From positions 1-45,113 of the IMG/VR virus record IMGVR_UViG_3300046167_000689: DNA of 45,113 nt; one strand, given 5' to 3'. Below the pieces are notes generated by a model. It was given only the letters and a program-made list of their open reading frames with translations. It made no database searches and was not told where the DNA came from. Below are positions 3,343 through 39,934 of this stretch, one piece after another (position 1 is the stretch's first letter; each line of letters starts with the position of its first letter). The position numbers were made by a program, and so were the translations under genes. Source of the DNA: a virus.

Positions 3343-3558
3343 ATGGATCAACAATTTTACAGAACACTTTTGCTGCTGGTTAACGACAAGAAAATTATGG
3401 GCGACATCCAAAGCTATGTAAATGCGAGGATAGATATTTTGAGAGATCATCTCGAAACCTCGTCCGACCCTCAAAGAATTTCAAAAATTCAGGGCGCAAT
3501 TGGTGAAATGCGTAGGTTCCAAACTCTCCGTGACGAAGTGATCGAAGGATCAAAATAA
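3343..3558 (+). CDS. Small hypothetical protein in virion operon
   Basis: Encodes 71 residues, largely helical and charged: MDQQFYRTLLLLVNDKKIMG then NARIDILRDHLETSSDPQRI and a C-terminal helix. A weak AAGG lies before the ATG. The stop overlaps the next start by one base (TAATG), placing it in the same coupled series as its downstream neighbour. No known domain is recognised. Position between portal and scaffold suggests a head-assembly or accessory role, which is inference only. Confidence 0.65.
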   Translation: MDQQFYRTLLLLVNDKKIMGDIQSYVNARIDILRDHLETSSDPQRISKIQGAIGEMRRFQTLRDEVIEGSK

Positions 3559-4217
3559 TGCTCACACTGGCTCAATCCCGCAAGGGCATCAACACCGCAG
3601 AAGGCTTGAAAATGGCTAAAAAGAAATTCCAATTAGACGAAAAAGCTGCCGACAAAGATGGCGATGGCAAACTCTCTAAATACGAAGAAACTGTTGGCAA
3701 AGCTGTTCAAGAGGCCATCGAAAAAGAAGAGTTGGTCGAGATGAGCCATGGTGGGATGCCATGCGGTTTGATGAGTGAAGATGCTCCTTTGGGTGTGACT
3801 GATAATGAGGTGGCTGACGATATTCCGGCGCTGATCTCCGAAAACGAATACGTCTTAAACGCTCAAACCGTGAAGTGGCATGGGCTTAAACATATCATGC
3901 AAATGCAGGAGGAGGCCGAGGCTGGTCTCATGAGCATGTATGGCATGGGATTGCTGGTAGAGGTGGACGGTGAAACGCAAGAAGAACCCGATGGCGAAGG
4001 CGTTGAGGACGCCCAAGTATCGGATGCGGGTTATTCCGAACAAGAAGCGGAAGACTACATTGAAACACCCGAAGGCAACGAAATTGAATTGGCTTCAGTA
4101 GAGACAATCTACGAAGAGCCTGACGTCGATGAAACCGAAGAATATCAGAATAATTCTTACGGAAAAATGACGTCCTACAGCATGATGAAAACGCCAAAGG
4201 TTAGTTTCATCGTGTGA
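3558..4217 (+). CDS. EF-hand-containing structural/accessory protein
   Basis: Encodes 219 residues. Residues 32-43 (DKDGDGKLSKYE) form a complete 12-residue EF-hand loop with acidic or polar residues at positions 1, 3, 5, 9 and 12 and Gly at 6, so calcium binding is likely. Residues ~78-120 hold ADDIPALISENEYVLNAQTV, a segment type seen in a small protein next to portal genes in many phages. The C-terminal half is very acidic. The start at 3558 overlaps the preceding stop and has GAAGG nearby; a second Met at residue 19 (MAKKKFQ) with its own GAAGG is an alternative. A virion or head-assembly role is inferred from position. Confidence 0.75.
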   Translation: MLTLAQSRKGINTAEGLKMAKKKFQLDEKAADKDGDGKLSKYEETVGKAVQEAIEKEELVEMSHGGMPCGLMSEDAPLGVTDNEVADDIPALISENEYVLNAQTVKWHGLKHIMQMQEEAEAGLMSMYGMGLLVEVDGETQEEPDGEGVEDAQVSDAGYSEQEAEDYIETPEGNEIELASVETIYEEPDVDETEEYQNNSYGKMTSYSMMKTPKVSFIV

Positions 4218-5255: not shown

Positions 5256-6597
5256 ATGGCATTTCAAAAAGCAGGAGGTTATTCCAACCTCCCAAATGGA
5301 AACTTTTCCAGCGTAATCTACTCAAAGAAAACGCAAAACGCATTTCGTAAAGCAACAGTTGTTGGCGACATTTCCAACTCGGATTATTTCGGCGAAATCG
5401 CCTCCCAAGGTGATACAGTAAAAATCATTAAGGAACCTGAGATTTCTGTCTCAGCTTACGCACGAGGAACTACGGTTTCGGCGCAAGACCTCAATGATGC
5501 GGACTTCTCATTAGTTGTTGATAAAGCTAACTATTTTGCCTTCAAAATGGATGATGTGGAAGAAGCTCACGCTTAATTTTTGGGCGCTTCAAGGAGTAAT
5601 CCTTGTCGAAAAATTAGTTGAATTGTCTGGGACACCCTACTGCGTAATGGCAAGGGCAATCAGCAGCGAAGCCTTGAAAGAGGAACGTCCAACGACCATC
5701 CCGAAAGGGAGTAGAGCCAAGCGGCTCGAAGCGGCTAACCCCTAACAAGTTAGGGTGATGATATGGTCTTCTCTGCATAGTAATATGCAGCAGTTCATAA
5801 GAGAACGGGTAGGTGATTAGCGCAACCTATCGAAAACATGGCATGTAAACTTTATGCAGCTTGCAACTGATCGTGCTGCCTACCGGCTTGCAGATCAGTA
5901 TGACCAAGAAGTTCTTGGTTATTTGTCTGGCTACAAGCAATCGGCACTTCACGGAGCGGCCAACACAGTCAACGACCAAGTTAATGGTACAAAGGCTGAC
6001 ACGACCGCTGGTAGTGACGAACTCTTGGCTTCGATGAAGCTGAAAAAAGGTGACTTTGGCAACATCACAACAACATCTGCTGGGGAACATTCGATCCCAG
6101 TAGCTGCTCGTTTGCCAGGTGCAACTGCACTTCCAACTGCTTACGCCTCACCAGCAATGGTCGTCGCTCGCATGGCTCGTTTACTCGACCAACGTCAGGT
6201 TGATACCACAGGTCGCTGGTTGGTAGTTGATCCAGTGTTCATGGAAATTCTGCGTGATGAAGACTCCCGTCTTTTCAACTCAGACTTCGGTGAATCTGGT
6301 GGCCTTCGTAATGGTCTGGTTCTGAAGAATTTCCACGGCTTCCGTGTTTATACGTCTTCAAACCTTCCAGCTGTTGGTACCGGCGCTGGAACCACAGGCA
6401 CAGCTAACCAAAACGCAAACTTTGGTGTGATCGTAGCTGGCCATGACAGCGCAGTCGCAACTGCTGAACAGATCAACAAAACGGAAACTTACCGTGATCC
6501 AGACAGCTTTGCTGACATCGTTCGTGGCATGCACTTGTACGGCAGGAAGATTCTGAGACCAGAGGGTCTCGTAACTGCCAAATATAACGCAGCTTAA
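5256..6597 (+). CDS. Major capsid protein, gene split by a group I intron
   Basis: The coding sequence joins exon 1 (5256-5573, 106 codons) to exon 2 (5842-6597), giving 357 residues after splicing. Exon 1 begins MAFQKAGGYSNLPNGNFSSV with AAGGAG upstream. The spliced junction reads ...DDVEEAHA|HVNFMQLATD, a smooth continuation. Unspliced, translation would stop after residue 107 and lose most of the shell domain. Size, position after scaffold and content (SVSAYARGTTVSAQDLND; VDPVFMEILRDEDSRLFN; a C-terminal RKILRPEGL) fit HK97-fold capsid proteins of HMO-2011-type phages. A hairpin with GGGGC/GCCCC arms follows the stop at about 6608-6631. Confidence 0.88.
5574..5841 (+). ncRNA. Group I self-splicing intron in the capsid gene
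   Basis: The intron is 268 nt and carries no endonuclease gene. Exon 1 ends in T (...CACGCT) and the intron ends in G, as group I introns require. P1: exon CGCT pairs with GGCG at 5583-5586, including the U-G wobble. P2: CAAGGA/TCCTTG at 5590-5605 with a GTAA loop. P7: GACCAT at 5694-5699 pairs exactly with ATGGTC at 5763-5768. Between them lie hairpins TCCC-GAAA-GGGA (5699-5710), GAGCC/GGCTC (5714-5727) and a P8-like stem (5739-5756). P9: CTGCATA/TATGCAG (5773-5790) with a GTAA loop. Layout and wording closely resemble the T4 td-type (IA2) introns, compared from memory. Confidence 0.92.
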
Positions 6598-27305: not shown

Positions 27306-27835
27306 CAAAGAAAAATCCCCGTGGTTTGCACCACGAGGACCTTTGTAACTAACGACGAGTGGTGACCAAACCTCCCGCTTGATTCGTAGATTACATAGTT
27401 TCAGGGGCTATTAAAGTTTTAATTTTGCGTAAATCAGCCGATTTAGCCTCCAAACCGAAAGTTTTTTTCGTGGCAGAACCTCATAACCTTATGGTCGTAG
27501 GCCCAAAAAAATGGCTCTAATTGATTGATTTGAAGTGCCTTAATTTCCGGAAAAGTGGTGAAACCTACGACCTAAAGGTTATGAGCCTCAGTTTTAGCTG
27601 TTTTCAAGTACATAGCCCTACTTTTTTCCATATTGCCCCTTACGCCATGCAAATTTCCCGGCTACGTTAGTCTCATGTTGGCGCATACCGGTCTATTGGT
27701 AGCTACGATTAAGGCAGTTGAAATCGTTTATGGAGTTGTGGCCTGACCAGCTACGACGAGCATCGTAAACGGGATTGATTGCAAAACTGAAGGTGCTCCT
27801 TGAGGGCCTTTGTAACTAACGAAAGGGGTTTGCAA
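27306..27835. repeat. Non-coding region with 22-bp inverted repeat and direct repeats
   Basis: No gene is convincing in these 530 bases. A 22-bp inverted repeat with two mismatches has arms at 27480-27501 and 27564-27585 around 62 bases. A 16-base direct repeat, CCTTTGTAACTAACGA, occurs at 27340-27355 and 27807-27822, so it brackets the region. A 13-base repeat, AGTGGTGACCAAA, occurs at 27358-27370 and again at 28515-28527. I saw no tRNA. The long stem could form in RNA or as a cruciform. Possible roles are an origin, a regulatory RNA, or the trace of an inserted element. Confidence 0.6.
27311..27345 (+). terminator. Stem-loop at the end of the virion operon
   Basis: Arms around CGTGG and CCACG (27320-27334) flank a short TTTGCA-type loop, six bases after the last virion stop. 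On the plus strand the following T-run is weak (CCTTTG). On the minus strand a run of T follows, so it may stop transcription in both directions. Confidence 0.5.
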
Positions 27836-28108
27836 ATGCAGCTTACCCACCAGATGGCTCAACAGATGGGTCTGGAGACTTTAGCCGAAGCTAACCGGCT
27901 TTTAGAATTTGGAAACGCTCTGATTGAGGCATCAAGAAACGGCCAGGATCATATTGTATATCCCGGCGCCTATGGCGTGGACGTTCATGCTATCACTGAC
28001 AGCGATCATTTCGAATATAATCCAAATGAGGATTACCTGATCACAGATTGCTCCAATGTTGATGAAGCGGGGCAGGTGCCTCCTGATCGTCCAGGGCTGG
28101 CCGCATAG
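27836..28108 (+). CDS. Small acidic hypothetical protein
   Basis: Encodes 90 residues from the ATG at 27836: MQLTHQMAQQMGLETLAEAN followed by a helical stretch and a Tyr/Asp-rich second half (HIVYPGAYGVDVHAITDSDH). AAAGGGG lies eight bases before the ATG. A start at 27800 would place the ribosome site inside the gene. It stands alone, with a terminator at 28121. No domain recognised. Its place in a spacer next to the integration region suggests an accessory or lysogeny-related gene (inference). Confidence 0.6.
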   Translation: MQLTHQMAQQMGLETLAEANRLLEFGNALIEASRNGQDHIVYPGAYGVDVHAITDSDHFEYNPNEDYLITDCSNVDEAGQVPPDRPGLAA

Positions 28109-28120
28109 CTAAAATGGATC

Positions 28121-28147
28121 AGGCCCTTTGGGGCCTTTTCCTTTGCC
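28121..28147 (+). terminator. Rho-independent terminator after the 90-residue gene
   Basis: GGCCC (28122-28126), loop TTTG, GGGCC, then TTTTCCTTT. Compact GC stem plus T-rich tail 13 bases after the stop. Confidence 0.75.
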
Positions 28148-28161
28148 TGTGACTCAGCATG

Positions 28162-28177
28162 ACACTACATTTAGTGT
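28162..28177. promoter_or_regulatory. Dyad ACACTA-CATT-TAGTGT, candidate operator
   Basis: Perfect 6-bp arms with a 4-base centre. A related dyad, ACACT...AGTGT, is at 28937-28953, and the ACACTA half is shared with the TAATACACTA element at promoters elsewhere. No promoter is certain here. Confidence 0.4.
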
Positions 28178-28291
28178 TTTGGAAAACCTGCCGATTCGGG
28201 TTTTGGTCGAGTTTTTGGATGATCCCAAAAACCTTTTGAGGCCACATAACGCTACATAAGGGTCAAGCAAATTTTAAATACAACATATTGT

Positions 28292-28305
28292 GTGACAGGT
28301 GTCAC
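28292..28305. promoter_or_regulatory. Dyad GTGACA-GG-TGTCAC, candidate operator
   Basis: A perfect 6-bp dyad with a 2-base centre, about 18 bases before GATAAT (28323-28328), a possible -10. A similar half-site pair (GTGAC...GTCAC, wider spacing) overlaps the -10 of the promoter at 44118-44146. The rest of 28109-28592 holds no credible gene. Confidence 0.35.
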
Positions 28306-28439
28306 GAAAACAAGATGTATGCGATAATATGGGACTTTACGAAAAGATCACTCGTTTCAATGCGATGAACAAAAAGTGAATATCACTTATCACCCAAATA
28401 CAGTGTCAAGCATTTTTTAAGGATTTATTTGTTAAAAAA

Positions 28440-28512
28440 TCGTTGATCCGCCTTTGGCACATTTGGTAATGTGAGCCACCATCTAAATATCTAAATATGG
28501 ATGGGCGGACGG
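28440..28512 (+). promoter_or_regulatory. Structured leader upstream of the 84-residue gene
   Basis: Outer arms TCCGCC (about 28446) and GGCGGA (about 28505) enclose a stem with TGGC/GCCA and CACAT/ATGTG, and an AT-rich stretch containing ATCTAAATAT. The parts can form a three-way junction if transcribed. It may be a 5' leader element for the gene at 28593. No match to a known riboswitch was recognised. Confidence 0.3.
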
Positions 28513-28592
28513 AAAGTGGTGACCAAAAACGAAACTGGGGTGCTGTGTACCAAATAGCATGGCCCCCTCTCCCATATGAGGCAAAAGGTTGA

Positions 28593-28847
28593 ATGAAGAT
28601 AGACGAGATTAAAGGCGCAAAGGTAAAGCCAAAAGAGACCATGAAAGTTGAGGCCGTTAATGCCTTGGAAATCATCCTCACGAAAGATGACTTAGGAGAG
28701 ATGATAAATGCGATGGAAGATGCCTACAACAATATGGGCAATACCCATAACGCAAATCTCATGGTAGAAGGCTCTGCAGAAACCGGGTTCATTTATGACA
28801 TATCATATACATGGACCAATAGCGGAGCGACCACACCGTTTTACTAA
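28593..28847 (+). CDS. Small hypothetical protein
   Basis: Encodes 84 residues: MKIDEIKGAKVKPKETMKVE, then an amphipathic helix (DLGEMINAMEDAYNNMGNTH) and a beta-rich end (TGFIYDISYTWTNSGATTPF). AAAAGG lies five bases before the ATG. It is a free-standing gene followed by a strong terminator. No domain is recognised. It is in the accessory spacer between virion and integration genes. Confidence 0.6.
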   Translation: MKIDEIKGAKVKPKETMKVEAVNALEIILTKDDLGEMINAMEDAYNNMGNTHNANLMVEGSAETGFIYDISYTWTNSGATTPFY

Positions 28848-28874
28848 CGTGTGATCCACACCTGACTATAAATT

Positions 28875-28903
28875 GGCCCTTCCAGTGGAGGGGCCTTTTT
28901 TTT
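28875..28903 (+). terminator. Strong Rho-independent terminator
   Basis: GGCCCTTCC (28875-28883), loop AGT, GGAGGGGCC (28887-28895), then eight T (28896-28903). It ends the 84-residue gene and separates it from the candidate small RNA. Confidence 0.85.
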
Positions 28904-28952
28904 GTCATAACGGTAAAAAGATGTTGTCTCAAAATGACACTTGAGTTTAGTG

Positions 28953-29076
28953 TTGACGTACTTCCCTTGGAGCAGCGTCTTACGTTTCAGAAGATTGTCC
29001 TTCTAACAAATTTATCTTCCCATCGTAGTGTAAGGACAAACTGGCCAGCTTTCTCACTTTGAGAGGCTGGCTTTTT
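28953..29076 (+). ncRNA. Candidate small RNA with its own terminator
   Basis: No gene is credible here. An 8-bp stem (TTGTCCTT 28995-29002 / AAGGACAA 29032-29039) is followed at once by a terminator hairpin (GCCAGC 29044-29049 / GCTGGC 29066-29071, then TTTTT). A TTGACG (28953-28958) could be a -35, but the -10 is poor. A dyad (ACACT/AGTGT) overlaps this start. The transcript would be about 100 nt and isolated by the terminator at 28903. The remainder up to 29268 contains an 8-bp inverted repeat, GGGTGAAC/GTTCACCC (about 29209-29236), and a 29-codon frame I do not trust. Confidence 0.4.
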
Positions 29077-29268
29077 CCTTGGTTACTTGAAGTCGATCGC
29101 AGATGAACCACCTGAGAAGGGAAAATGACTTATAGTTGTTTTCTTCTCCGAGGGAGATCGGTGTTCGACTGGGAGGCGGGCGCTGGTCGCAGGACGGCCC
29201 ACGAATGTGGGTGAACGCAGCGTGGGCTGTTCACCCTATAAATCAATAAGCGGTAGTAATTGTACGAT

Positions 29269-29451
29269 ATGAATAAGCATCAAGAATTTTTGAAGTTCGA
29301 AGCTGTATTGGCTTATTGTGAGAAGCAGGTACCAGACGGTTCACTCTTAGCTGCCATGGATTACGGACGTGAAATGCAGTTGTTTGACGGACACAACTCA
29401 CTGTCTGAAGCAGGTCAGCTTCTAGCTGAGACGATATTGTCTAGCACCTGA
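29269..29451 (+). CDS. Small hypothetical protein before attP
   Basis: Encodes 60 residues from the ATG at 29269: MNKHQEFLKFEAVLAYCEKQ then VPDGSLLAAMDYGREMQLFD and a helical end. The ribosome site is weak. It could be a small regulator acting near the integration region, but no helix-turn-helix is evident. The frame opens three codons earlier at a TTG, which I reject as start. Function unknown. Confidence 0.5.
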   Translation: MNKHQEFLKFEAVLAYCEKQVPDGSLLAAMDYGREMQLFDGHNSLSEAGQLLAETILSST

Positions 29452-29472
29452 GGTTAATCAGTTCGTAAATGG

Positions 29473-29688
29473 TGGCATTAAATGGCATTATTTATGGCAT
29501 TACCTTTAATATTTTAGCTTAGCAAAAATAACCTGTAAATTATTGTTTATATTGTAATAAATTCAGTAATGCCAAATTATAATGGCGGAGAATGCCGTTT
29601 CCCTTCGTCTCCGCCATACCCCTTTTTTTATGATAACCCTTGTATATAAGGCTTATTTGCACTATCACTGGCATTATATGTGGCATTA
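29473..29688. other. Probable attP with six TGGCATTA arm-type sites
   Basis: TGGCATTA occurs at 29473, 29483 and 29495 (spacing 10 and 12), inverted (TAATGCCA) at 29567, and again at 29669 and 29681. These flank a core at 29595-29617 whose TCCCTTCGTCTCCGCCA reads like the 3' end of a tRNA-Ser gene. Integrases of the lambda class bind such arm sites on both sides of a core. The integrase gene starts 13 bases after the last site. That the core equals a host tRNA end is from memory, not a search. Because this attP is intact and flanked by phage genes, the phage is not integrated here. Confidence 0.7.
29582..29629 (+). terminator. Perfect hairpin with T-run inside the attP core
   Basis: Ten-bp arms ATGGCGGAGA (29582-29591) and TCTCCGCCAT (29608-29617) with a 16-base loop, followed by seven T at 29623-29629. 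It works as a terminator and also holds the tRNA-like core. Both uses may be real: an attP at a tRNA end often carries its own terminator. Confidence 0.65.
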
Positions 29689-29700
29689 TGGAGCTGGTAT

Positions 29701-31503
29701 ATGACGTATCCTGATTGTAAATTGGTCCAAAGAGCTGAAGGTGTCAGCTGGTATTTTCAATGCACGATTCCGTCAGAGTTACGTCCACTGTTCAAAGGTC
29801 GCAAACAAATTAGAGCGACTACCGGAACCTCAGATCGGCGGTTAGCGGAAGAAAGACGGTTCGCTGTCACGGCGTCTATCTACAAAAAATTTGATGACGC
29901 ACAGCAGAAAGAAAAAGATTATGACAAGGACTACGCCAAATCCTTGATAGAGGCTGTTGCGCAAGTGATCGGCATCAAAGCTAGTGGGTCACAGCCACCT
30001 AAAGACTTTCTAATTGCTGATGCAGAATTTGAGAGGCTTACGCAAGAAATTGGTACACCTGAGACGGACGAGGACGCAGAACGCTTAGAAGGCGCTATGG
30101 TTGCTCTTCAAGAAGCTGGCCGGAGATGGGAGCAGAGTAACCCTGTTTTCTCATTCTCGCAGAAGAACAGCTATAAGCAGCTTTGTGACGTGAAGCGTCG
30201 GATGGATATTATGGTCGAGAGCGTGTTTATCAACAAACACGGTTTTAAAGGACCTTTTGGCACTGACATGCTTGCAGCCTCTGGGACGCATGGTGACATT
30301 TTAATTCGTTATCATGAGGATAACTTCGTCAGCGACTTTTGGCAGCTGAAAATTGAAGCAGCTTTCATGCAAGAGAGGCTAGTCGATGAGGAGCGCATAA
30401 AGCACAACGAAATTCGCCCAGTCCGTATGTCACCTAATTACGAGCATGTGGGCTTTAAGAGCTTCGAGGCTTGGCATGCAGACGAGTTAAAGGCCAAAAC
30501 ACCTGAAGACAAAATCCAGAAGTGGCACAACCTTGCGAAAGTGTCTGAGGTGCCTGAGGTCCGTGCCGCTGGCTTAGATGTGGAAACTAAAGCGTCAGGC
30601 CAAGGTCCGAGGATGGACGATCTTATTGGGCCTTACATCGAAGCCAGAACATGGGGCAGAGAGAAGACCAAAAAAGGCGTTTTGCGTAAATTAGAAACTA
30701 TTTCAAGATTACTGGATAACCCTCGACCATCAGAAATCAGTCAGAAAAGTGTTATCGAATTTGCCGAGAAATACATAGCAGAGGTCAAAGAGAAGAGGGG
30801 TCAGCCACCAGCCATAGGGTTGGTAGAGGCATTTAAGTCTGCTGGGTCAGGGTTCATGAGGATTATGATTCGAAAAGGTGAGGCTGATGGTAACCCCTTT
30901 ATTGGTGCTGATCTCAAAGACCTTGGTGCTAATGAGGTTGTGAAGAGTTACCGACCGTTCGACAAATCCGAACTCACCGATTTATTTGCGTTAGAGATGC
31001 CAGCAGAGGACAAATTACTTTTCTCAATACTTTTAGCCACAGGAATGCGGCTTGATGAGGCTGCTCTATTGGATTGGAGCCAAGTCAAAACCGAGGATGG
31101 CATCAGATATTTCTCTCTACTTGATGGTGAAGATGCAAATGTGATTGTCAAAAACCAAGGTTCATTGCGCAATGTACCGATACCAGATGTGCTCAAACTG
31201 CCTGAGACGGGTTCAGGGCGCTTGTTCTCGTATGCGGTAGATGAGGACGGCAAGGCAAACCAAGCGTGTTCAAAACTGCTTATGAAGCATGTTCGAAAAA
31301 TAACAAAAATGGATACCAAGGTCATTCATAGTTTGCGTGGGAACTTAAAGGATTTGTTGAGGGATGCAGGCGTGGCTAAAGAGTTGAACGACTTTATAAC
31401 AGGTCACTCATCTGGAGATGTTGCTGGCAAGTACGGATCAGGCTTTAGTCTGCAAAAACGATATGAAGCAATTAACTCCGTAAAACATCCTTGGCTGAGC
31501 TAG
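29701..31503 (+). CDS. int: Tyrosine recombinase / phage integrase
   Basis: Encodes 600 residues from the ATG at 29701, with GGAG seven bases upstream; a GTG at 29680 is rejected because it overlaps an arm site. The N-terminus (VSWYFQCTIPSELRPLFKGR) matches a short DNA-binding domain (DUF6538-like) of large alphaproteobacterial integrases. The catalytic domain has TGMRLDEAALLDW (Arg450), KNQGS (possible Lys484), HSLRGNL (His543, Arg546), GHSSG (His569) and Tyr578 in GKYGSG. It joins attP to the host site by a covalent Tyr-DNA intermediate. It is next to attP. About 240 residues longer than lambda Int, as usual for this subfamily. Confidence 0.93.
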   Translation: MTYPDCKLVQRAEGVSWYFQCTIPSELRPLFKGRKQIRATTGTSDRRLAEERRFAVTASIYKKFDDAQQKEKDYDKDYAKSLIEAVAQVIGIKASGSQPPKDFLIADAEFERLTQEIGTPETDEDAERLEGAMVALQEAGRRWEQSNPVFSFSQKNSYKQLCDVKRRMDIMVESVFINKHGFKGPFGTDMLAASGTHGDILIRYHEDNFVSDFWQLKIEAAFMQERLVDEERIKHNEIRPVRMSPNYEHVGFKSFEAWHADELKAKTPEDKIQKWHNLAKVSEVPEVRAAGLDVETKASGQGPRMDDLIGPYIEARTWGREKTKKGVLRKLETISRLLDNPRPSEISQKSVIEFAEKYIAEVKEKRGQPPAIGLVEAFKSAGSGFMRIMIRKGEADGNPFIGADLKDLGANEVVKSYRPFDKSELTDLFALEMPAEDKLLFSILLATGMRLDEAALLDWSQVKTEDGIRYFSLLDGEDANVIVKNQGSLRNVPIPDVLKLPETGSGRLFSYAVDEDGKANQACSKLLMKHVRKITKMDTKVIHSLRGNLKDLLRDAGVAKELNDFITGHSSGDVAGKYGSGFSLQKRYEAINSVKHPWLS

Positions 31504-37827: not shown

Positions 37828-39934
37828 TTAATCCATCAACCAATTTGTACCTGACGTACCTTCAATCTTTAAAGGAAGTACAAAAGTATGACCCCAACGA
37901 TCTTGTGCCTCAGATAAAACATCGACCATTGCCCACTCCAAGATTTGGTTCACTTCAGTGACCTCATCGGGATGTGTATCGATCACAATGCTATCGTGTA
38001 CGGTAAGGATCAGGAGGGATTTTAGGTGTGTTTCCTTAAATCGACGATGCGCTCGTACACACGCCAATTGCACCAGATCGTTCCCAAAGCCTTGGACGGG
38101 GTAATTCACCACCTGAGTGGCATTGCTAATACGGCCATTCTTAAATCGTTTAGCGTCTGGCCAATGATATTGGCGCCCACTTGGAGTTTGTACGATCCCA
38201 TCGTGTAGGACGCCGTCCATCAAACTCTTATGGTACTGAGCCAAACCTTTATAGATTTTGAAGAACTCACGAAAATAGGTTTGGATGTGAGGTAGTTCGT
38301 TCATCCCCATACCGCCAAATGTAGGTGCGAACGTAAATTTCTTTACTCCGTCCCTCATTTTTTTGGTGACGTCGCCGGCCTCGCATCGATGAATAATAGT
38401 AGCTGTCTGACGATGGATGTCTTTGTTGTTCTCAACGTCGGCTATTATTTGAGGGTCACGAGACAGTTCTCCAGCGCAAATCCATTCCAAAGACGAGTAA
38501 TCAAATTCTGTAATCAAACCGTTTTCAAAGCGAGACACCACGCACTTGCGTATAGGAAACCCTCGCTTTGGTTGGTTCTGAAAGTTTGGATTGGACGAAC
38601 TCAAGCGACCAGTGGCAGTCACACATTGATTGAAGTTGGTGTGAAGCAGACCAGTTGATCGTGTCCAAGTTTGAATGCCTTTCACAAAGCTGTCCAAGTA
38701 TGTCGAAACAGCGTTAAGCCGACTGATCTTGGTTAGGAACTCTACAGCAATGTCGGAGCCTTTCGCTTCTGCATCAGAAATAAGAAGCTGCAGTGTCTCT
38801 TTATCGGCTTTGAACCCATTGATGGACGCATAACTTGCATCTTTTGGAGTGAGCTTTAAGCCGGCAACCTTTCCGGTTGATTGGTATAAGGCACCAGCAC
38901 CAGAGCAAGCCGCACACTTTGACATGTTCTTGTATGGGTCGCCGTTTCACCTTCAATTTTTGAATACGGCCACGGCCATTACAGGCATCACAGCAAGAAG
39001 CCACGGTGCGGTGTACAACTTCGGTTGTGGTGCGGACTGCTTTTTGAAACTCACCCGCCTTCATACGAGGGGGACGAAGCGGCTTGCCGTTTGCACCAAC
39101 ACCAATGTTGAACATGCTTTGATGGATTTTCCGATCCTTAACCCGGCGAGAGTACACAACTTGGGTCATGTCAGCCCCAGAGTTTAGATTGATAGGAGTA
39201 TCACCCATAACGGTTTCAACAATTTCGTTGAGCCGCTTGGTGAGTTCGTTTTTCTCAGTTTGGAATTGCTGTTCAACATCGTTTAAGGCGTCTCGATCAA
39301 CATTGATGCCATTGCGTTCCATGGAGACCAAAGAAAGCAGCATCTCATTAGACAAGTCTAAGATGGGTTTGAGCGATGCATTTTCGTCCAGGCTGAAGTC
39401 ATTCAGCTGGTCCAGGTATATTTCACCGCAGGATTTTACATCGGCCTCAGCATACTCAATTACAATGTCGAGGGGCATCGCTTCAAAACCCACACCGGAT
39501 TTGAATAGCTCATCAACCAGATCAGATTTCTTTTGAGTAAAGATCATGCCGCCACACTCCTGCGTTCAGCAGTTGCTTTAAGGCTGATCTGGCGACGTTG
39601 GCCCTTCGACAGAAGATATTCACCAACCATTGTGCAGTAAACGGTGGGAGGAATAGGGAGGCCCATCTCTGCGAGCCAAAGCACGTCAAATTTGGCGTTA
39701 TGGGCTATAAGTACATCAGCCTCCTCTAACGCCTCTCGAAGGGGTGCAGGGTCATCTGCAGCCTCTTGTTCGTTGTGATTGAATACCAAGTGCTGGACTT
39801 CATCGACGGTGTCCCAGCCAATCCAACCGAAATGTGCGCTGACGCAACGATTATCAGGGTTGAAGGGACTATTGTCGGTTTTACCGCCGACTTTTTGCAC
39901 CGGTCGTTTCGAGGTCTACGACAAGCTGTTTCAT
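37828..39934 (-). CDS. Family A DNA polymerase with embedded DnaJ-type zinc finger (frame broken)
   Basis: Starts at 39934 (MKQLVVDLETT) overlapping the gene upstream (ATGA). Three frame breaks lie near 39900, 39545-39560 and 38945-38947; the total 2107 bases minus one net base gives 701 residues. The exonuclease domain has VVDLETT, HNAKFDVLWL and YAEADV. Mid-protein are two DnaJ-like knuckles, CDACNGRG and CAACSGAG, about 30 residues apart. The polymerase domain has EFDYSSLEW (motif A), KKFTFAPTFGGMG (motif B) and LTVHDSIV (motif C). It copies phage DNA; the zinc finger may bind DNA or a partner. The breaks are probably single-base sequence errors. Confidence 0.9.

Follow-up and report, generated by a model that had tools for sequence, protein, structure and literature searches.

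A group I intron in the major capsid gene of an HMO-2011-like phage, with relatives at eight sites of the same gene

The window, by which we mean the whole 45,113-nt stretch of viral DNA analysed here, carries a major capsid gene whose two exons are separated by a group I intron. The exons, the intron and the helices predicted for it are as follows.

5256–5573, + strand: major capsid gene, 5' exon, codons 1–106 (PHROG 267 major head protein, E 9e-17)
5574–5841, + strand: group I intron, 268 nt, no ORF (RF00028 at 86.8 bits, covariation, empty-site homologues)
5842–6597, + strand: major capsid gene, 3' exon, codons 107–357 (PHROG 267, E 2e-37)
5570–5586, + strand: P1, exon CGCU/UAA (5570–5576) with guide UUGGGCG (5580–5586), U-G at the 5' splice site
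5590–5605, + strand: P2, GUAA loop at 5596–5599, 3 pairs changed on both sides
5614–5738, + strand: P3, 5614–5620 with 5732–5738, 3 pairs changed on both sides
5624–5688, + strand: P4 (5624–5630 with 5660–5665), P5 (5635–5638 with 5653–5656), P6 and P6a (5666–5688), from the RF00028 match, drawn fold and covariation
5694–5768, + strand: P7, GACCA (5694–5698) with UGGUC (5764–5768), pseudoknot with P3 and G-binding helix
5699–5727, + strand: P7.1 and P7.2 hairpins (5699–5710 and 5714–5727), compensatory changes in both
5740–5755, + strand: P8, from the drawn fold and covariation
5773–5830, + strand: P9 (GUAA loop at 5780–5783), P9.1 and P9.2, from the drawn fold and covariation

The 5' exon aligns with codons 1–106 of HMO-2011-type coat proteins and the 3' exon reaches 79.7% to the coat protein of Roseobacter phage CRP-9, the best figure among HMO-2011-like coat proteins. 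The gene is flanked by two SU10-type genes, one for the portal on its upstream side and one for the adaptor on its downstream side, and the 3' exon gives a match to Pfam P22_CoatProtein (PF11651) below the cut-off (19.8 vs 24 bits). Judged from its homology to HMO-2011/CRP coat proteins and its place in the head module, the interrupted gene is a P22/HMO-2011-type major capsid gene. Immediately upstream of the intronless capsid gene of one relative (L003, 1997–2566), a PacI-like HNH endonuclease is annotated.

A sequence-only reading had placed a group I intron at 5574–5841, between capsid codons 106 and 107, and had proposed a covariance model as the check. The match to Rfam RF00028 (Intron_gpI) spans 5564–5790, scores 86.8 bits against a cut-off of 50 (E 6.6e-21) and is the only one in the 45-kb record, even at E ≤ 0.1; the boundaries are exactly those proposed, and the flanking ORFs join in frame at ...EEAHA/HVNF... 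to give a protein of 357 codons. A second Rfam match in the window, to isrG, reaches 24 of 100 bits and was set aside as a chance match. The last base of the 5' exon is U (GAAGCTCACGCT) and that of the intron is G at 5841 (ACATGG), and the U-G pair of exon and guide is invariant in all 20 aligned introns described below. The comparison with homologous capsid genes, also suggested by the sequence-only reading, gave the same answer: in tblastn searches with both exons, the genes of CRP-13, CRP-1, HMO-2011, Manatee Spring phage and a Rhizobium phage (L002–L006) are contiguous at codon 106/107, as are most of the 80 closest IMG/VR homologues, and 5574–5841 is therefore an insertion and not a segment of the protein. 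Only 4 of these 80 homologues have an intron anywhere in the capsid gene, and none was found in any HMO-2011-type isolate inspected; with so few carriers among the homologues, the intron is dispensable in this phage group. As anticipated, it encodes no endonuclease: no ORF lies within the 268 nt. A Pfam scan for free-standing homing endonucleases, covering 30 window proteins with only some of the small ORFs among them, gave no HNH, GIY-YIG or LAGLIDADG match.

To describe the fold, 20 introns inserted after codon 106 (site 106) were aligned, the group I structure was drawn on the window sequence and its 71 pairs were counted. In the complete fold 98.6% of the cells are paired, against 91.2% in shuffled and 32–46% in slid controls, and 28 of the 71 pairs are changed on both sides, against 17 in shuffles and 1–6 in slid controls, although a structure drawn on one member sequence somewhat favours itself; one pair of the extended P1 fits the window sequence only. 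P3 and P7, which form the pseudoknot of the conserved P3–P8 core, are 100% paired over the 20 sequences and show compensatory changes, P7 occurring as GACCA with UGGUC, GACUA with UAGUC and GAUCA with UGAUC (2 pairs changed on both sides). The pairing of the guide with the 5' exon is likewise kept by compensation: the window is the sole row with CGCU and GGCG, the other 19 having CUCU and GGAG, which amounts to a double compensatory change, and at site 99 (after codon 99) the combinations are GGAU with GUCC, UGAU with GUCA and CGAU with GUCG. The compensations between exon and intron and within the P3/P7 pseudoknot would be hard to explain other than by the group I fold. The P1, P2, P7, P8-like and P9 stems and the terminal G named from the sequence alone are all present in the drawn fold or the sequence, as are the GTAA loops foreseen on P2 and P9. 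Two extra hairpins, P7.1 and P7.2, lie between P7 and P3; from these and the P9.x helices we take the intron to be IA2-like, as are T4-type introns. MFE folding of the single sequence does not set the intron apart from shuffles (z −1.95) and does not show the core, so that MFE folding is uninformative alone, the group I core being shown by the covariance model together with covariation.

A table of introns in this gene was compiled from IMG/VR with two scans anchored on protein sequence and several based on patterns, and only introns obeying the exon-U/intron-G rule were retained. Pattern matching supplied the introns at sites 96 and 106 of four loci, and a site-96 row of L102 was left out as false. 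In this phage group at least 51 distinct introns occupy eight exact insertion points of the capsid gene (after codons 20, 50, 61, 99 and 106 and within codons 44, 55 and 96), and the exon-U/intron-G rule, which is also the table filter, holds in 51 of 51 tabulated introns. Several genes carry two introns, and that of L309 carries three. All eight sites fall within the first 106 of the 357 codons, a clustering that is partly a product of the search design, one scan having been anchored at codon 107. Gene-agnostic scans recovered sites 20, 50, 55, 61, 96 and 106 and, among the matches listed, none further 3'; moreover, codons 125–330 are uninterrupted, with no intron found there, in 76 of the 80 loci retrieved with the 5' exon as query. 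Higher conservation of the 5' part was not borne out as a source of the clustering, the identities, read as ~82% for exon 1 and ~86% for exon 2, running in the opposite direction. At site 106 there are 26 distinct introns, that of the window included, all of 265–272 nt, lacking an ORF and sharing the same base of insertion and the same fold. LAGLIDADG_2 proteins are confined to sites 44, 61 and 99 among the eight, where they are encoded by copies of ~900 nt (E 7e-25 to 2e-30 in four longer copies); at site 99 the L102 copy has the ORF and the L097 and L112 copies are short. A stop in the capsid frame lies within 0–8 codons of every 5' splice site, and at index 0 in 22 of the 26 introns at site 106.

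Some side observations concern these relatives. In L112, L245, L097 and L300 the LAGLIDADG ORFs terminate in ...DIV-stop over GATATAGTC, and the endonuclease frame therefore overlaps the 3' strand of P7; the I-TevI reading frame overlaps the core of the td intron. On the reverse strand of L316 (~3407–3660), an intron starts like those at site 55 and ends like those at site 96, with capsid codons 56–96 missing; this looks like a chimera, produced either by recombination between two introns or in assembly, and some of the multi-intron contigs might be assembly chimeras as well.

The cores at sites 20, 50, 96 and 106 share a mean identity of 77–82% with one another and of ~70% with introns in other genes, a set that contained one capsid locus, L316. 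The 3' motif of P9.1/P9.2 is found in 46 IMG/VR contigs, in 40 of them within this capsid gene (37 contigs of the table and L099, L108 and L316). Outside capsid genes it was seen in one gene in L304, L305, L319, L320 and L329 and, by eye, in a ribonucleotide reductase gene in L326. Target and guide are shared between sites, GCGUU and GACGC being common to sites 20 and 96, and CUCU and GGAG to sites 50 and 106; the introns most closely related to those of sites 50 and 96 fit this pairing of sites, and in the intron tree the site-20 intron of L109 groups with site-96 introns (support 99/97). These four observations favour a route by which ORF-less introns moved between sites of the capsid gene: reverse splicing directed by the guide/target match of 4–6 nt, then reverse transcription and recombination. 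We regard this route as possible but with the odds against it: the sequences are short and the deep nodes weak, shared targets among eight sites could arise by chance, and the same picture would result if introns within a gene converted one another or if an endonuclease cut ectopically. AU tests of a single origin gave p 0.058 for site 20 and p 0.23 for site 106, values at which single origins are not firmly rejected and repeated transposition is suggestive but not significant; intragenic reverse splicing therefore has the standing of a good hypothesis only. The introns of the window and of L323 are 92% identical and their 3' exons 77%, and at site 106 identity is often higher between introns than between the exons around them; this would suit lateral transfer, but also functional constraint on the ribozyme. 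A gene with eight invaded sites, in which some copies encode an endonuclease, others have no ORF and many alleles are empty, is a natural system for testing how ORF-less introns move.

A census of host genes drew on a gene-agnostic, core-motif sample of IMG/VR, in which the open frame upstream of each intron was taken and 119 frames were scanned with Pfam and PHROG. Among the matches listed, major head families lead (PHROG 267, n = 17; 1328, n = 11; 3437, n = 7), with Pfam counts of 12 for SU10_MCP and 7 for Phage_capsid_2; the other hosts listed include ribonucleotide reductase families (3–4 members each), RNA polymerase (2) and terminase (2). Because one member may match several families, the capsid total is given as an estimate, of 27–40 of the 119 frames scanned. 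In a second sample, drawn with a 15-base motif, the major head family PHROG 1328 was again first (8/73); we give more weight to the first census, since the second includes chance matches and intron-encoded HNH genes. As the motif was derived from this intron type and the sample consists of the matches listed, the census speaks for this subtype and not for all phage introns. Introns with the same core were also noted, by eye and in pooled Pfam/PHROG matches, in SU10-type, T7-like and HK97-type capsid families (L230, L204, L262, L215, L284 and L218), and a head gene of an unrelated phage has consecutive intron cores, L293 with as many as five matches and L302 with three.

Phage group I introns are said in the literature to favour genes of nucleotide and DNA metabolism, a bias that has been called mysterious (PMC12350094). 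The sequence-only reading was true to that literature in describing phage introns as better known from metabolism genes, but capsid-gene introns have been published, in LittleE and Tuc2009, and capsid genes are the commonest hosts in our census. As they lead two gene-agnostic samples, and in unrelated capsid families, the published preference may be partly an effect of sampling cultured phages, and it appears that self-splicing introns favour the shell genes of phages as a location, one that has been overlooked. The stronger proposal is that ORF-less introns have multiplied from site to site inside the capsid gene of HMO-2011-like phages through guide-directed reverse splicing, and that in uncultivated phages this intron type resides chiefly in capsid genes generally and not in those of nucleotide metabolism; it is speculative, and we doubt that both parts will hold.

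With a probability of about 0.9, the intron is best read as a spliced, near-neutral and largely selfish mobile group I element in the capsid gene, and not as a regulator. The capsid exon would pair with the intron guide in P1, a guanosine bound by P7 would attack the 5' splice site and the exons would be ligated after the terminal G, restoring the 357-codon ORF. The first intron codon is an in-frame TAA stop (5574–5576), which would keep ribosomes off the folding core, and because of this stop at the junction mature capsid protein requires splicing, in support of the earlier claim that all capsid depends on it; this is not evidence of regulation. Early in-frame stops that keep ribosomes out of the core are a general feature of group I introns (reviewed in PMC3073962), which weakens the case for the regulatory gate suggested in the sequence-only reading, in which capsid synthesis is held until splicing becomes efficient, late in infection under active translation or high GTP, so that head assembly is timed. 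The position of the intron, ahead of 70% of the coding sequence and with its stop at the junction, would suit such a gate; moreover, splicing of T4 introns depends on translation and on the state of growth (Sandegren and Sjoberg, cited in PMC3073962), and the introns of Bastillevirinae have been suggested to act as switches (PMC11878797). However, with 4 of the 80 closest homologues carrying any capsid-gene intron, and no inspected HMO-2011-type isolate, the group manages without one, and we consider a gate improbable.

More improbable still is a broken capsid gene, whether its insert is an intron that has degenerated and no longer splices or an artefact of chimeric assembly. The window is a single metagenomic contig, and L316 shows that intron chimeras occur or are assembled, but 26 distinct introns agree in fold and in the exact base of insertion, and their pairing, including that to the exon, is kept by compensation. 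We infer instead that the mobile element outlined above most likely persists by efficient splicing, and that it is one of many that colonised the first 106 capsid codons in HMO-2011-like marine phages. The relatives at sites 44, 61 and 99 that encode LAGLIDADG endonucleases are presumably able to home; ORF-less copies, such as that of the window, may have spread by recombination, with a helper endonuclease in trans or by reverse splicing.

One of the closest known systems is the intron in the major capsid gene of mycobacteriophage LittleE (Pope et al. 2013, PMC3706429), most likely of group I, for which RT-PCR and sequencing of the protein N-terminus showed splicing in vivo. It shares with the present intron the preceding U and the terminal G, but it is ~819 bp long, has a LAGLIDADG ORF on the opposite strand and is known from one site in one phage of an unrelated host. 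The tail-gene intron of BAKA and Optimus, which is spliced (PMC3706429), resembles ours in size (265 bp), in having no endonuclease and in its late structural gene, but not in the gene itself or the phage group. Lactococcus phage Tuc2009 has a group I intron in a structural gene, with DNA similarity to the window intron; PMC3706429 terms the host gene a capsid subunit gene, but the record names it major structural protein 4, and the site and the host are different. The T4 nrdB intron matches the core of the window intron at 84% over 64 nt; the introns of T4 td, nrdB and nrdD (sunY) and of Twort have core similarity, but they lie in nucleotide-metabolism or other genes and several carry endonucleases. 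In Jug phages, late and essential genes such as terL, nrdD and polymerase contain many small group I introns, of which 37 of 76 are supported by metatranscriptome reads (PMC12363816); we are not aware of a capsid intron among them. Capsid-gene introns are thus already known; what is new here is the multi-site pattern and the host-gene bias, and in the literature outside most subscription journals we found no publication on capsid introns of HMO-2011-type phages.

Elsewhere in the window, ~2.4 kb (27306–29679) without a long ORF separates a gene of 1124 codons from one of 607 codons (29680–31503), the latter with a DUF6538 and a weak phage integrase match. On the reverse strand, at 37828–39547, a DNA polymerase A domain lies in a 365-aa ORF that overlaps an upstream ORF of 248 aa, and this polymerase may be split or frameshifted.
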